A stretch of 64,000 nt of DNA, taken from NCBI RefSeq assembly GCF_004337705.1, contig NZ_SKBU01000006.1:186001-250000 (forward strand), written 5' to 3'. Within the stretch, counting starts at the first letter, position 1; the number at the start of each line of letters is the position of its first letter. The notes beneath the pieces were generated by a model. It ran no database searches. It saw nothing but the letters and a program-made list of their open reading frames with translations, and was not told where the DNA came from. This document shows positions 520 through 7,129 of this stretch, one piece after another. This DNA is from Rubrobacter taiwanensis. Its GTDB lineage: Bacteria > Actinomycetota > Rubrobacteria > Rubrobacterales > Rubrobacteraceae. Both the position numbers and the translations under genes were made by a program.

Positions 520-1830
520 TCAAGCCAGGTCCGTCTCACCCGATCGAAACATCTGCACCATACCCTCCTCATCTCCCGGCGGAACTTGATCTATCCCGAC
601 CATTTTGTCGACAATCATGTTTTGGTAGCGATGGAGGGTTTCTTCGAACTTGTAGCACATCCGGCCTCCCCGGTATGCCGGATTGGAGATCCCCTCCTGC
701 ACCCGCTCGACGATCTCAATGTCTTGGAGGTTGACAAGGTCCCAGAAGCGCATAAGTTGATTGAGTTTCTCTTCTGCGTCGGGGTCTTCCAAGGACTCTG
801 GATGAGAGAGGATAACAGTCTTTTCTAAAGTTTGATCCGGTCCCACAGGCTTTGCAACGATAACGAAAGCGTGATTCGGCAGCACGGAGATGGCGGTGTT
901 AGGGAACAGCAGAGCAAAGCGCGCGCTCACGGCATCTTCCTCACTCAGAGAACTGAGCGGAGGAAGCCCCTGCCACCCACCAGCCTCACTATTCTGTGAG
1001 ATCGGTGTTGTACAAAATCCAGAGTACATCCCCGGTCCTTGCCAGCGATAGTGGTCTTCCATACGAGAAACCTTCACAAGCTCAGGGTGTACCCATGGCA
1101 AGTGATAGTATTCCAAGAAGTTCTCCCCGACGAGCTTGTAGTTCGCGGCTACATGGTAGCCCTTCTCCCGCACAACCCGCCACTCATCCAGCCGGTGCCC
1201 GGAGAGACGCTCTGGCAAATCACCGAGTTGCTTGGCGAGGGGTTCAGCTTCGGTATCCAGGTTAACGAAGACCAGGAAGCCCCAGTTCTCCACCCTGACG
1301 GGCAAGAGTCCATAATCAGCTTTATCGAACGCTTTGACACCGCTCATGTCGAAAGCCACCTGAGCTTCCTTCGGAATATCCGAACCTTCGAAGAGGGGCG
1401 TGCCCAGACACCGACCTTCGAGATCATAAGTCCAGCTATGGTAAGGACATCTTATTCTGTTGTTGCGCACCATACGGACATCATCATCGAGCAGCTTGGC
1501 GGCTCGGTGGCGGCAGACGTTGTGGAAGGCCCTAAGTTTACCTTGCTTGTCTCTGGCAACGATGATCGAACGTCCGGCGACCTCAGCGACGATCACCTGC
1601 CCCGGCTTCTCTACCTGAGAGGCAAATCCGACCACGACCCAGCTCTTAGCGAACACCCTCTCCCGCTCAATCTCGAAGAACTCGTGAGAAGTGTAGGCGT
1701 CGGGGATGAGAGTCACCGCCAGGTCTACCGGAGCTCGGGTGTGCCTGTAGGTCTCCTCCTTGATGTAGGCTTCGGGCGGTATGGGCCGAGGATTGAGCCG
1801 TGCATAAGGATCGACGCGACTAATGGTCAT
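520..1830 (-). CDS. Rieske non-heme iron oxygenase, alpha subunit (choline monooxygenase / betaine demethylase type)
   Basis: A 436-residue oxygenase subunit. The Rieske [2Fe-2S] ligands are CRH at residues 106-108 and CPYH at 128-131. The mononuclear iron site is seen in ENFLEYYHLPWVH, with E240, H243 and H248, and a later Asp in LQDIEIVE. Relatives hydroxylate or demethylate quaternary amines (choline monooxygenase, carnitine oxygenase CntA, glycine betaine and stachydrine demethylases). The ATG at 1830 is chosen because GGAGGAGAT lies just upstream; an in-frame ATG at 1866 is less likely. No reductase partner gene is visible, so electrons must come from a gene beyond base 1 or elsewhere. 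Substrate unknown; the BCCT transporter in the operon argues for a betaine-like compound. Confidence 0.87.
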   Translation of the reverse strand: MTISRVDPYARLNPRPIPPEAYIKEETYRHTRAPVDLAVTLIPDAYTSHEFFEIERERVFAKSWVVVGFASQVEKPGQVIVAEVAGRSIIVARDKQGKLRAFHNVCRHRAAKLLDDDVRMVRNNRIRCPYHSWTYDLEGRCLGTPLFEGSDIPKEAQVAFDMSGVKAFDKADYGLLPVRVENWGFLVFVNLDTEAEPLAKQLGDLPERLSGHRLDEWRVVREKGYHVAANYKLVGENFLEYYHLPWVHPELVKVSRMEDHYRWQGPGMYSGFCTTPISQNSEAGGWQGLPPLSSLSEEDAVSARFALLFPNTAISVLPNHAFVIVAKPVGPDQTLEKTVILSHPESLEDPDAEEKLNQLMRFWDLVNLQDIEIVERVQEGISNPAYRGGRMCYKFEETLHRYQNMIVDKMVGIDQVPPGDEEGMVQMFRSGETDLA

Positions 1831-1884
1831 ATCTCCTCCCTTCCGAATCGCTTTGGACCTTTGCAATCGAGAACTCCAGTTCCA

Positions 1885-3147
1885 TCAGAGCAACCTTTCT
1901 TCATAAGGGTAGAGGGAAAGCATTACCGAACCCTCTGTGGTGATCCAAACCTCATCTTCCAGCTTCACCCCATCCTGCTCGCCCACTTTTCCTGCGTAGA
2001 ACTCCACGCTCACTACCATGTTCTCCTTGAACTCCCCATCTAGCTTTACGGCTCCGGGATCATCGGGATACGGGAAAAACGGCGACTCATCGTCCATGCC
2101 TACGCCGTGCAACACGAACGAGTAGCGTTGCCCCCTGTAGGCATCCGGGTATTTGGGAAGGGTCTCAGCAAGCTCGGCGTAGCTCAGTCCGGGCTGCAGC
2201 CGTCCGGCAAGCTCATGGATGAACTCATGAGCTACCCTATAGGCCTCCTTCTGCACCGACGTCGGATTCTCCCCGCACAGGAACGTGCGTGAGATGTCGC
2301 AGACGTAGCCTTCGGGCCCTGTCATATCGGTGTCAAAAGCCACAAGGTCTCCGGGACGTACCAGCTTGCTGCCTGCCTCGTGGAACCATGGGTTAGTCTT
2401 GTGCCCCGTGGAGAGAAGCCGCGAGAAGCAGTGCTCGCCACCCAAGGAGAGCATCTTGTGATAGAAGACACCCAGTAGTTCGTGCTCGCTCACTCCGGGA
2501 CGGATAGACTGCTCTAGATCGTACAACGCAGCCTCGCAGACAGCGGCAGATTGCTTTAGAAGCTCGATTTCATCCGCGGTCTTGATGATGCGTGCTGCTT
2601 GTAACGGGTCATCAGCATCTGCAAGCCGAAGCCCTAACTCCCTGAGTGCTGAGAAGCCATGGTAATCGAGGCAGTCTACGCCGAGCTTGGCATCAACTAC
2701 ACCCCACTGCCGAAGAACGTCTTTGATCTCTGCTGCCCACTCACCCGAGCGCTCTGCAGCCATCTCCTCGGCGAAGCGTGCCTGCCAATAATGAGCACTT
2801 CTCACATCAGAAAAGAACTCCTCAGCGCGAAACTTCGCCCGAGCGTACTCGAAGACAACCGGACTTCCCTCGGCAGGTGCCAGTACGTAGTGGGCGAGGT
2901 TAGTAGCCGACCACAGCGGCATCACGCTAATGCCGGTTACGTAGCGGATGTTTATAGGATCTGTCAGGAGAAGGGCTCCTACATCTCGAGCTCGCATCTC
3001 CACCTGCACCTTGCGAAGCCGGTCACCGCGGAGCCGTTCGAGGTCCACCCCCCGCTCCAGTAAGGTGTTCGTCTGGCCCAGAGTTCGACGATCTTTCGGG
3101 ATCGTAGTCCGTCTTGCCCCTGTTTCTATCCGCAGGGAATCTGTCAA
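1885..3147 (-). CDS. M24-fold metalloenzyme resembling DMSP lyase DddP
   Basis: A 420-residue protein with the pita-bread fold of M24 peptidases. Metal-ligand candidates are D272, D284, H347, E382 and E397, all intact, so it is not a creatinase, which lacks metal. Three features match what I remember of DMSP lyase DddP rather than prolidases: FDTD (second Asp D274), TNPWF around 251-255, and HGVGMDDESP, where D353 is six residues after the His, the position of the proposed DddP base. DPINIRY near 63-69 also resembles DddP. DddP cleaves dimethylsulfoniopropionate to acrylate and dimethylsulfide. Here it sits with amine genes, so the leaving group might instead be a trimethylamine-type group (inference). 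The TTG start at 3147 follows GGAGG by 8 nt. Ectoine hydrolase or Xaa-Pro dipeptidase activity is the alternative. Confidence 0.75.
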   Translation of the reverse strand: MTDSLRIETGARRTTIPKDRRTLGQTNTLLERGVDLERLRGDRLRKVQVEMRARDVGALLLTDPINIRYVTGISVMPLWSATNLAHYVLAPAEGSPVVFEYARAKFRAEEFFSDVRSAHYWQARFAEEMAAERSGEWAAEIKDVLRQWGVVDAKLGVDCLDYHGFSALRELGLRLADADDPLQAARIIKTADEIELLKQSAAVCEAALYDLEQSIRPGVSEHELLGVFYHKMLSLGGEHCFSRLLSTGHKTNPWFHEAGSKLVRPGDLVAFDTDMTGPEGYVCDISRTFLCGENPTSVQKEAYRVAHEFIHELAGRLQPGLSYAELAETLPKYPDAYRGQRYSFVLHGVGMDDESPFFPYPDDPGAVKLDGEFKENMVVSVEFYAGKVGEQDGVKLEDEVWITTEGSVMLSLYPYEERLL

Positions 3148-3199
3148 GGATCTGTCCTCCTATCACGTTCGTCCAGTGTTAGCAGAGAAGCGCGCATCA

Positions 3200-4384
3200 T
3201 CAGGCGTGAAACGTCTTCTCAAATGTGCGATCGGTGATGGCCCGGCGTGTGAGCTTGAAAGGCTCGATAGGACAAGTAGAGAAGCCGTCCAGCGCGAGTT
3301 CCGACAAGATCCGACCAATAAGGCTAGCAAATTTATAGGCGTGCCCGGCTCCGATGGCCACTGAAATCTGAGGATGTTCCGGTAGCGTATCTATGACGAA
3401 GTTCTGGTCCGGTGGAATCGTGTACGGGCACGTCTTGGTGTAGAGCTCTGGTCCCAAGAATCCGGGTATATGTCGGCTCAGGAAGTTGCGGTACCGTTCC
3501 TTGCGGACTGGGTCAGGCTCAAAAGTTCTGGTCTCCGGTGTTACCTCGTGTCCTCCCATGTGTTGCCCCAGCTTGGTTGCCACCTCACCGTAGACGGGGA
3601 ACCCATAGAAGTTGTGAGCTCCATGCCACATGAAGACGGGAAAGCGATCCGGCGCAAACTCACGTAGATTTGGTGTGGAATAGTAGGTTATCTGCTCTTG
3701 GGTTATAGTCAGTGGTATCTGTATATCGATCTCCTTGAGTACCTGGTTTGTCCACATGTCGCATGTGACGATAACGTGGTCGGCGAGGAAGGTGTCATGG
3801 TCTGTGATGACCTCAACTCCCCCTCCACTCGGACGTATAGCTTTGACTGGTGTCTCCTCCAGAATATCCGCCCCCCGTGCCCGTGCTAGGGCCACATGGG
3901 TAGCGTTAGCGCGGCGGGCATCTACAATTCCGGTATCTTTTTGGTAAATGGCTCGTTCAGTACCCTTCAAGCGGAACTGTGGCCAACGCCTCATCAGCTC
4001 ATCTGGCTCTAACACCTCATAGTCGAAGCCCTGCTCCTTGAAAGTCGCCACATACCCGTCAACGTTCCGAGTCCCGACTCTGGCCGGATCCCGCTCGTCC
4101 GCAGCTTCTATAACTAGGCCGCCGGTCTTGATCACAAGGCGCTGTCCCGATTCTTCCTCTACCTCGCGCCAGGTTTCGTAGGCCTGTGGGGCGAGGACGG
4201 CGTACTCAGACTGGTGCTGAGCCAGCCGGATGATGCGGGAGTGATCCTGGGAAGCACCGCGTTCGTGACCGAGCTTGAACTGCTCGATGCCAAGCACCGA
4301 GGATCGCATTCTACGAGAGAGCCAGTAGAGTGTGGCGGACCCAAGACCACCGCATCCAACAACGATTGCTCCATAGCAGTTCAT
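3200..4384 (-). CDS. Monomeric sarcosine oxidase / N-methyl amino acid oxidase family flavoenzyme
   Basis: A 394-residue MSOX-family protein that probably oxidises an N-methyl or secondary amine with O2, giving H2O2 and formaldehyde or an aldehyde. The N-terminal dinucleotide motif is VVGCGGLGS (residues 8-16). Cys319 in KTCPYT is at the position of the covalent 8-S-cysteinyl-FAD attachment, and GAGHAYKF near 345-352 is the conserved C-terminal FAD contact. The ATG at 4384 (or 4387) is preferred over 4456 because AGGAG lies directly upstream and the protein then begins just before the FAD motif, as in the family. It lies between the BCCT and DddP-like genes in the same operon. Sarcosine, dimethylglycine or N-methylproline are all possible substrates. 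Confidence 0.85.
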   Translation of the reverse strand: MNCYGAIVVGCGGLGSATLYWLSRRMRSSVLGIEQFKLGHERGASQDHSRIIRLAQHQSEYAVLAPQAYETWREVEEESGQRLVIKTGGLVIEAADERDPARVGTRNVDGYVATFKEQGFDYEVLEPDELMRRWPQFRLKGTERAIYQKDTGIVDARRANATHVALARARGADILEETPVKAIRPSGGGVEVITDHDTFLADHVIVTCDMWTNQVLKEIDIQIPLTITQEQITYYSTPNLREFAPDRFPVFMWHGAHNFYGFPVYGEVATKLGQHMGGHEVTPETRTFEPDPVRKERYRNFLSRHIPGFLGPELYTKTCPYTIPPDQNFVIDTLPEHPQISVAIGAGHAYKFASLIGRILSELALDGFSTCPIEPFKLTRRAITDRTFEKTFHA

Positions 4385-4488
4385 CATGCTCCTTCTATTC
4401 TGTCCTGATGTGTTCCTGCGTTCCGCGTTGGCCGCGCCATCATAGGTCGCAGGCACAGATATAATGGATTCAGCGCCCCGGCATCGCT

Positions 4489-6066
4489 TTATCGGGATGC
4501 TCCATGCCCCTCCGTTACGCTACCCCCATCCTGGGTCGTAGCCGGAACGGCAGGTCGCTCCGGCAGGACTTCTGCCAAAACTGCCTTATACAGAGAGGCG
4601 GCTAAGCCAATCAGAAGGATCGTGAACGGCACCCCCGTTATTATGGCTACCTGCTGCACGGCCTCAAGTCCGCCAGCCAGAAGGAGAACCACTGCGAAAG
4701 AGGCTATAAAGCTTCCCCAGATGACCTTGACCATCGCCGGAGGATTCTGGTGTCCGTTACTCGACAACATCCCGAGAACGAAAGATGCCGAGTCTGCCGA
4801 GGTTATAAAGAACGTAGCGATCAGGATCATGGCCAAAACAGAGACAATAGTCCCCAGAGGAAACTCATTCAGAGTAACGAAAAGGGCCGTGGAGATGTTC
4901 TCCGACACGGCGGCTGTGATGTTTCCTCCACCGAAGAGATCCAGGTTCAACGCCGAGCCTCCCAAAACGGAGAACCATAGAAAGCTTAACAGGCTCGGCA
5001 CGACCAGCACTCCTATGACGAACTCCCGGATCGTCCGCCCTTTGGAGACCCGAGCGACAAAAGTACCAACCCACATCGACCATGTCATCCACCACGCCCA
5101 GTAGAAGAGAGTCCAGCCCTGCAGCCAGGCATCCTCCTGCACGAAAGCCCCTGAAGTGAAGCTCATCGTCACGAAATTCTGTATGTAATTGCCCAACGTT
5201 GCCGTAAAGACATCCAGCATGAAGATCGTGGGGCCCACGATGAGCAGGAAGAGCATGATCCCCATGAAAAGAGTCATGTTGATATGGCTGAGATACCGAA
5301 TACCGCGATGCAGCCCCGATACCGCCGAAGCTACGAACACCGCCGTCACCCCGGCAATGATCAGGATCTGCACGGAGGTGCCCTCCGGAACACCGAACAA
5401 ATAATTTGTCCCGGTATTGATCTGCAGAGCCCCTATCCCGAACGATGTCGCAACGCCAAGGGTAGTGACGAAGATGGCTAGGACGTCTATGGCTTTTCCT
5501 ATCGGCCCGTCGACCCTATCTCCCAGCAGCGGATAGAACGCCGTACTGATTAAACCCTTCTTGCCCCGGCGAAAGGTGAAGTAGGCGATAGCAAGGGCGA
5601 CCACTCCGTATATCGCCCAGGGATGCAGCCCCCAATGGAAGAAAGTGTATTGCATGGCCATCCTACCAGCCTCCATCGAGCCCGGCTCGGCCATGCCGAG
5701 TGGCGGAGCGGAGAGATGAGACATGGGCTCGCCGACACCATAAAAAACAAGACCGATCCCCATCCCCGCGCTGAACAGCATGGCAAGCCATGCCGCAGTG
5801 CTAAACTCCGGTCGGTCGCCGTCCTTTCCCAGCCTTATCCTCCCGAAACGGCTGATGGCCAGAAAGAGCATGAAAACGATAAACAGCGTAGTAGCTATCA
5901 GGTATACCCACCCAAAGGTCTCAGTCACGAACGATAACGCTGCCGCGTTGAACGCGGCCAGACTATCCGTAAAAAACACACCCCACACGACAAATAAGGT
6001 GGCGAGCATTACCGAAGCATAGAATACTGCCCCGACCCGGACCCTAGCCTCTCGCTGCATCTTCAT
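4489..6066 (-). CDS. BCCT-family betaine/carnitine/choline transporter
   Basis: About 525 residues with roughly twelve hydrophobic segments. The BCCT signature is clear in FYWAWWMTWSMWVG, the Trp-rich segment that forms the onium-binding site, followed by ARVSKGRTIREF. The family moves glycine betaine, carnitine, choline, ectoine or DMSP with Na+ or H+ across the cytoplasmic membrane. It is the first gene of the minus-strand onium operon, with a 104-nt gap to the flavoenzyme, and is divergent from the LysR gene. There is no long C-terminal osmosensing tail (the protein ends shortly after the last membrane segment), which fits nutrient uptake rather than osmoprotection. The ATG at 6066 is chosen; the in-frame TTG at 6069 is equally close to the purine-rich upstream stretch. 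Confidence 0.9.
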   Translation of the reverse strand: MKMQREARVRVGAVFYASVMLATLFVVWGVFFTDSLAAFNAAALSFVTETFGWVYLIATTLFIVFMLFLAISRFGRIRLGKDGDRPEFSTAAWLAMLFSAGMGIGLVFYGVGEPMSHLSAPPLGMAEPGSMEAGRMAMQYTFFHWGLHPWAIYGVVALAIAYFTFRRGKKGLISTAFYPLLGDRVDGPIGKAIDVLAIFVTTLGVATSFGIGALQINTGTNYLFGVPEGTSVQILIIAGVTAVFVASAVSGLHRGIRYLSHINMTLFMGIMLFLLIVGPTIFMLDVFTATLGNYIQNFVTMSFTSGAFVQEDAWLQGWTLFYWAWWMTWSMWVGTFVARVSKGRTIREFVIGVLVVPSLLSFLWFSVLGGSALNLDLFGGGNITAAVSENISTALFVTLNEFPLGTIVSVLAMILIATFFITSADSASFVLGMLSSNGHQNPPAMVKVIWGSFIASFAVVLLLAGGLEAVQQVAIITGVPFTILLIGLAASLYKAVLAEVLPERPAVPATTQDGGSVTEGHGASR

Positions 6067-6193
6067 CAAACCCTTTCCCCTTCATTACGTGAAGGCCCTG
6101 AGTTTTCTCTCTCACCACAGACGACTCTAGCACCGGCAATTTTTCTGGTCCAATATATTTTTAAGCCTGTTATTGATATAATTTATAAATGAA
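6067..6193. promoter_or_regulatory. Divergent control region between BCCT operon and LysR gene
   Basis: A 127-bp gap whose right half is very AT-rich. TATAAT at 6177-6182 is a good -10 for the LysR gene and puts transcription start about five bases before its ATG, so that mRNA may be nearly leaderless. TTAT and ATAA half-sites in 6169-6188 are of the kind LysR regulators bind. No convincing promoter for the BCCT side was found by eye. Confidence 0.5.
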
Positions 6194-7129
6194 ATGGAAC
6201 TGCGCCAACTACGATACTTTGTCGCTGTCGCCGAAGAGCAGAACTTTGGCCGCGCCGCTAAGAGGCTGCATATGAGCCAGCCTCCTTTGAGCATGCAGAT
6301 CAGGAGCCTGGAAGAGGAGCTTGGAACTAAGCTCTTGGAACGCAGCACCCGGCGGGTTGTCCTGACCGACGCAGGGCGTGCTTTTCTGGAGCGGGCGAGA
6401 GCGATACTGGGTGCTGTGGAGGAAGCTCGGGAGGTGGCGAGGAGTGCAGAGCAAGGGTTGCGGGGACGACTCGAGGTGGGATTCATAAGCTCTGCTACAT
6501 TGACCTTACTTCCTCCTTCTATACGGCTCTTCCGCAAGCGATTTGGTAGCGTCGAGTTAGATCTCAGGGAGTTAACCAGCGCTCAGCAAATAGATGCCCT
6601 TTATGCAGGTGAAATAAGGACAGGACTGGTACGGCTACCGCTGCGGGCACCTGGCATCCGCCTCGAACCCATCTTCGAAGAGCGATTGGTTGTTGCTCTG
6701 CCCTCAGGACACGAACTAGAAACGTTCGAGCGCGTGCCGCTGGAAGAGATCGCCGATCTGCCTTTGATCTTCTTTACGCGCCAGCTAATCCCTGGTTTTT
6801 ATGCTCAGATCGTCGAGCTATTCCAACGGATCGGCACCTTTCCAAAGGTTGCCCAGCACGCAGTTCACCTTCAAACTATCGTGGGCTTGGTAGCGAGCGG
6901 AATTGGCATTGCAATCCTGCCCGCCTCTGTTAAACGACTCAGTCGAGAAGGCGTCATCTATCGACCCTTAGACGCACCCGATGCCACGAGCTGGATGGGG
7001 TTGGCTTGGGTGGAAGGAGATGAATCGAAGTTGCTGCAGAACTTCGTCCATACGGTACGTGAAGTGGCAGACAATGAGATGCCATCCGCTGCTACAACCT
7101 GGGAAACCGGAACGAGGGATCACGGATGA
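6194..7129 (+). CDS. LysR-family transcriptional regulator
   Basis: A 311-residue LysR-type regulator. The N-terminal winged helix-turn-helix is plain: MELRQLRYFVAVAEE, NFGRAAKRLHMSQPPLSMQ as the recognition region, then TKLLERSTRRVVLT. A periplasmic-binding-protein-like effector domain occupies the rest. It is divergent from the BCCT-led operon across 127 bp, the classical arrangement for a LysR activator of the neighbouring catabolic operon, with the transported compound or a product as co-inducer (inference). Codon use is visibly less GC-rich than in the genes after 7.2 kb. It converges with the GH130 gene at 7196. Confidence 0.9.
   Translation: MELRQLRYFVAVAEEQNFGRAAKRLHMSQPPLSMQIRSLEEELGTKLLERSTRRVVLTDAGRAFLERARAILGAVEEAREVARSAEQGLRGRLEVGFISSATLTLLPPSIRLFRKRFGSVELDLRELTSAQQIDALYAGEIRTGLVRLPLRAPGIRLEPIFEERLVVALPSGHELETFERVPLEEIADLPLIFFTRQLIPGFYAQIVELFQRIGTFPKVAQHAVHLQTIVGLVASGIGIAILPASVKRLSREGVIYRPLDAPDATSWMGLAWVEGDESKLLQNFVHTVREVADNEMPSAATTWETGTRDHG

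Follow-up and report, generated by a model that had tools for sequence, protein, structure and literature searches.

The 64,000-nucleotide stretch of Rubrobacter taiwanensis DNA analysed here (the window) encodes an M24 "pita-bread" protein, the product of the open reading frame running from 3147 to 1885, that is built to the plan of DddP and yet by score and tree falls outside DddP proper. Two points stand out: a betaine operon contains an active site of DddP type, and the family to which DddP proper belongs, as a single twig, is much wider. A literature search, which covered few subscription papers, found no paper that places an M24 protein in betaine clusters or that treats the cleavage of beta-alanine betaine. 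The reading that we put forward, tentatively and short of an even chance, is that the protein is a two-metal enzyme of DddP type acting by beta-elimination, in an operon that would import and degrade an N-methylated zwitterion.

The open reading frame carries the Pfam domains Peptidase_M24 (7.9e-33) and Creatinase_N (1.2e-9). Orthologues in two other Rubrobacteraceae genera are 88% and 84% identical, and the dN/dS of 0.05–0.06 between the window gene and these two orthologues indicates strong purifying selection and rules out a chance reading frame; this is a real gene. It is present in five of the 40 genomes of its own family. In one of these (G003) a stop or frameshift interrupts the copy, at L018:9350-10600, although the operon around it looks intact; this would reflect either decay or an assembly error.

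Table 1. Features of the M24 locus, in window positions except where a contig is named.
Feature	Position	Strand	Basis
Aldehyde dehydrogenase (ALDH), betaine-aldehyde-dehydrogenase-like; cut by window edge, 489 aa in genome	2..523	minus	homology
Rieske oxygenase alpha subunit	520..1866	minus	CntA 127 bits, GbcA model 174 bits
M24 enzyme gene, DddP-type, 420 aa, TTG start at 3147	1885..3147	minus	ORF + homology
Codons of Y342 (= Y366), H347 (metal) and D353 (= D377, proposed base)	2089..2124	minus	alignment
Codons of the metal-binding stretch D272-T-D274, with the sixth ligand typical of DddP (RlDddP D297)	2326..2334	minus	alignment
Codons of TNPWF (residues 251–255); where DddP has this stretch, M24 peptidases have a substrate-binding His	2383..2397	minus	alignment
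Shine-Dalgarno AGGAGG, 8 nt upstream of the M24 TTG	3156..3161	minus	read directly
Monomeric sarcosine oxidase / N-methyltryptophan oxidase (SOX) type flavoenzyme	3200..4456	minus	PRK11259 303.8 bits, cut-off 257
BCCT transporter	4489..6069	minus	NF047988 glycine betaine type 664 bits, cut-off 650
LysR-type regulator, divergent; also adjoins the operon of G003 and of G019	6194..7129	plus	homology
MDR-family dehydrogenase, end of operon, left of window	G000:C49:183926-184972	outside window	genome contig

Alignment with RlDddP (4rzy) shows that its six metal ligands, D295, D297, D307, H371, E406 and E421, are all identical in the window protein, as D272, D274, D284, H347, E382 and E397; a preliminary description, made from the DNA alone, had called the metal ligands intact. 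Its residue numbers D274 and D353 also prove exact. The TNPWF stretch is unbroken, and D353 lies six residues past the metal ligand H347. Y342, D353 and W79 correspond with Y366, D377 and W95 of RlDddP, and both substrate-binding histidines of the M24 peptidases are replaced, at D353 and in TNPWF. The metal ligands and Y366 and D377, the two residues proposed for catalysis, serve as criteria for DddP (PMC4108388). DddP has the sixth ligand, with Asp and Phe in place of the two peptidase histidines; it lacks Val-Pro activity and acts by beta-elimination, the loss of peptidase activity being ascribed to the replacement of both histidines (PMC5395565). The residues of the window protein thus support an active site of DddP type, unlike that of the peptidases.

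The fold is consistent with this. Among solved structures, sequence comparison puts RlDddP (200 bits) and RdDddP (4b28) first, far ahead of the best prolidase at 71 bits, and an AlphaFold2 model of the window protein (pLDDT 87.9) superimposes on both DddP structures with a TM score of 0.89, compared with about 0.6–0.7 for prolidases, creatinase and DoeA. The window protein has the pita-bread fold in common with prolidases, aminopeptidase P and creatinase, and with prolidase also five of the metal ligands, but it has the sixth ligand and has lost the peptidase histidines. The ectoine hydrolase DoeA/EutD has the same overall fold and acts on an osmolyte-derived compound, but in the alignment it lacks the DddP-type motif residues.

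Likeness to DddP stops short of membership. The window protein is about 30% identical to DddP and scores 265.6 bits on the NCBIfam DddP model NF043017, whose cut-off is 600; on the DoeA models TIGR02993 and NF038259 it scores 32.4 and 33.9 bits, against cut-offs of 613 and 575. In the phylogenetic tree the DddP-type proteins form one clade (34 rows, support 99/99); DoeA, the genome's prolidase-type paralogues and creatinase-like M24 proteins fall outside it. Inside this clade the window protein groups with L024, L053 and L147 in a branch that splits off early (98/94), whereas DddP proper (RlDddP and Roseovarius L104) is nested deep elsewhere. AU tests rejected a clade of the window protein with RlDddP and L104 (p = 1.2e-4), its grouping with the wider DddP clade (p = 9e-40), a clade with DoeA (p = 1e-6) and one with L002 and L004, the long-branched prolidase-type paralogues of its own genome (p = 6e-5). 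The earlier assignment to a DddP-type M24 protein stands for the active site, the protein not being DddP proper, and the phylogenetic check proposed with it places the protein outside the DoeA and prolidase clades.

These results also bear on whether the protein is a true DMSP (or DMSOP) lyase, with DMSP imported by the BCCT or ProVWX systems and the amine genes serving other osmolytes of the same transporter. BCCT carriers import DMSP, and the operon BCCT matches DddT at 234 bits. Every DddP-defining residue is present, and DMSP was still cleaved thanks to a DddP from a fungus that shares only 32% identity with RdDddP (PMC4108388). The sub-threshold score and the rejected groupings with DddP stand against this, as does the fact that the operon encodes N-demethylation while the Roseovarius DddP locus has none of the N-demethylation neighbours described below. 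We consider a true DMSP lyase less likely, and indeed improbable.

A scan with a family alignment found at least 579 relatives of the DddP-type M24 protein in the genome collection; among the matches listed, most are from Mesorhizobium, Pseudomonas, Roseibium, Paraburkholderia and uncultured Proteobacteria. NIRY and TNPW were part of the patterns used for the scan, so that conservation of these stretches in the set is partly enforced, whereas D297, Y366 and D377 were not used. The viral contigs searched contained no relative. These sequence comparisons show a large family, in which DddP proper makes up no more than a small twig. In a sister group of the window protein (L021, L053, L086, L144, L145, L146, L148, L150 and L152), two metal ligands have been lost (D307 to Cys, E421 to Gly) together with a change of D377 to Glu; the active site has apparently been remodelled or altered in its metals, with the protein conserved.

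The M24 gene stands third in an operon with the order BCCT, SOX-type oxidase, M24, Rieske, ALDH and MDR, preceded by the divergent LysR gene. Intergenic gaps are about 20–80 nt, and the Rieske and ALDH genes overlap by 4 nt. Profile and structure matches agree with the original view of the Rieske oxygenase, N-methyl oxidase, BCCT and ALDH neighbours as quaternary-amine genes; a divergent LysR gene and, just outside the window, the MDR gene are further neighbours. The best PDB relative of the Rieske protein is the carnitine monooxygenase CntA (127 bits). Against the GbcA model it is far under the cut-off (174 against 670 bits), yet it is still the best GbcA-like match in the genome. The flavoenzyme matches monomeric sarcosine oxidase at 187 bits. 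GbcAB and the roseobacter MtgBCDE system (PMC12478193) represent the same enzyme classes as those found around M24 family members; an M24 protein is not mentioned in that roseobacter glycine-betaine paper.

Two simple assignments of the operon were rejected. A plain glycine-betaine operon is disfavoured by the GbcA score and by the substrate itself, since glycine betaine, like dimethylglycine and sarcosine, has no beta carbon; all three are thereby excluded as substrates of an eliminating M24 step. An acrylate route through the operon MDR was set aside as well, since by model score the operon has no clear acryloyl-CoA reductase: the MDR protein reaches 147 and 44 bits on the acryloyl-CoA reductase models, whose cut-offs are 500 and 440. 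Nor did the operon show an acryloyl-CoA ligase. A YhdH-family protein over its cut-off is encoded elsewhere in the genome (G000:C7), but the family is common in bacteria and this copy is weak evidence for an acrylate route. Relatives of the MDR protein that are ∼61% identical occur in rhizobia, at other locations; on S. meliloti pSymB the gene lies beside an aminotransferase, near ectoine genes.

The operon, with Rieske, SOX-type oxidase, ALDH and either BCCT or ProVWX, is found in three further Rubrobacteraceae genera and in part in a fragmented fourth. G010 and G003 retain the SOX-M24-Rieske-ALDH core, with LysR adjoining it in G003, and the MDR gene is retained in G010, G019 and the fragmented G035 (locus L026). 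In G019 a ProVWX-type ABC importer and a 251-residue protein take the place of BCCT. The exchange of transporter around a conserved core argues for one pathway. The 251-residue protein (L017:4634-5389, plus strand), which heads the G019 operon with LysR on one side and the importer on the other, has no match in Pfam or NCBIfam. Public annotation names homologues of the M24 protein "Xaa-Pro peptidase family protein", in keeping with an Xaa-Pro-type peptidase, or a housekeeping M24 enzyme, that lies in the operon by chance. With the operon kept in four further Rubrobacteraceae genomes, its linkage recurrent, the DddP-type residues present and the prolidase-type clade rejected by the AU test, this explanation is very improbable.

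Elsewhere, and across phyla, members of the family adjoin several unrelated N-demethylation systems. M24 loci of Pseudomonas, Oceanospirillum and Oceanimonas have Rieske, ALDH, reductase, DAO oxidase, cupin, BCCT and LysR genes, and by composition these sets are the counterpart of the Rubrobacter operon; the P. oligotrophica locus even includes an MDR protein 50% identical to that of the window. In Mesorhizobium, Aminobacter and Roseibium the M24 gene is accompanied by MttB and a DMGDH-like protein, often with betaine-homocysteine methyltransferase, and in other loci of Pseudomonas and in Paraburkholderia by an OYE/FadH-type flavoenzyme. The actinobacterial locus L158 brings together MttB, DMGDH, M24 and a Rieske protein 45% identical to that of the window. 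Within the retrieved flanks, homologues of Rieske, MttB, DMGDH or OYE occur at 27 of 60 family loci, reduced by genus although genera are only partly independent, compared with 4 of 60 control windows that were spaced evenly over seven genomes, either the same ones or related (Fisher 9e-7). The neighbour reference proteins were taken from the case loci themselves, and the counts rest on homology-based calls. A link of the family to the catabolism of N-methyl amines or betaine-type compounds is well supported by these sequence data. The enzyme is a distant relative of DddP among genes for the breakdown of N-methylated amines, and many unrelated bacteria show the same pairing; for the wider family, nitrogen compounds are therefore more probable substrates than DMSP.

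In the fetched set, N-demethylase genes adjoin 54 of 76 loci with a full active site and none of 23 with lesions (D377G, D377E with loss of two ligands, and others). On the tree, the correlation of active site and context comes down to only four independent contrasts, none opposing, and is not significant. Members from S. meliloti pSymA and Shinella have D377G, yet among their neighbours are MttB and a DMGDH-like protein as well as a glycine-betaine ABC importer. The pattern was dropped as proof in view of this counterexample and the weak contrast test, and the neighbourhood alone is no proof of a lyase mechanism. The pSymA cluster itself (L239:9251-19714), which is kept in Shinella, encodes an MttB-family protein, a GlxA-type regulator, the D377G M24 protein, an isochorismatase-family hydrolase, the importer, and mandelate-racemase family and Ldh-family proteins. 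The set has the look of a betaine pathway, so far uncharacterised, in an organism that serves as a model. At five other loci (L076, L096, L153, L157 and L159) the M24 gene lies beside a HalD/BesD-like 2-oxoglutarate dioxygenase, those from Pseudomonas also having Dpp-type uptake genes and a porin; this may be a separate pathway common to Pseudomonas and actinobacteria.

The retention of betaine neighbours by members with Gly at the D377 position suits a different chemistry, in which the M24 protein would be a C-N hydrolase that, in the manner of creatinase or prolidase, cuts an amide- or amidine-like bond of a conjugate and frees an N-methylated amino acid for demethylation by the Rieske and SOX-type enzymes. 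Most M24 relatives are C-N hydrolases, and a pathway is known in which creatinase acts ahead of sarcosine oxidase. The isochorismatase-family hydrolase in the S. meliloti cluster and the Dpp-type peptide-uptake genes beside the Pseudomonas D377G members also fit. However, D353 and TNPWF stand in place of both peptidase histidines, a replacement to which DddP is held to owe its lack of peptidase activity, and the window protein lies outside the DoeA and prolidase clades. We regard such a hydrolase as possible, though rather unlikely.

For the beta-elimination that we tentatively favour, DddP provides the model. The substrate carboxylate would bind to the metal pair and the positively charged onium group would be held by W79, W254 and Y342; D353 would take the alpha proton and the amine at the beta carbon would leave, as dimethylsulfide does in DddP. 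Either ahead of the cleavage or following it, the Rieske and SOX-type enzymes would strip off N-methyl groups, and ALDH would oxidise the aldehyde formed. C-N cleavage by the window protein through beta-elimination is plausible by this comparison, and we infer that the substrate would be a beta-ammonio acid, such as beta-alanine betaine or a demethylated form of it; by analogy with DddP, elimination from such an acid is the most economical reading. Amines are poorer leaving groups than dimethylsulfide, which counts against it, as do the operon's want of an acryloyl-CoA ligase and of a recognised acryloyl-CoA reductase, the D377G members with betaine neighbours and the small number of independent contrasts. 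Since glycine betaine and its demethylated products could not be eliminated, either the operon substrate would be another betaine or the M24 step would be a hydrolysis feeding the demethylases.

Of the genes for DMSP cleavage in the ocean, that of DddP ranks with the most abundant, yet the enzyme has a millimolar Km. A broader and more doubtful proposal is that the DddP-type M24 proteins are a broad family, for the most part not DddP, of onium-acid lyases, C-N eliminases for N-methylated betaines, of which DddP would be a late recruited offshoot and the window gene an early-branching member with a full active site. If true, descent of DddP from betaine lyases would explain its millimolar Km for DMSP. 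If the wider family does act on N-methylated compounds, the automated labels "DddP" and "Xaa-Pro peptidase" on soil and rhizobial genomes would be wrong, a step of betaine degradation would have been overlooked in S. meliloti, Mesorhizobium and Pseudomonas, caution would be called for in scoring distant DddP homologues as producers of DMS, and the origin of DddP would become directly testable.
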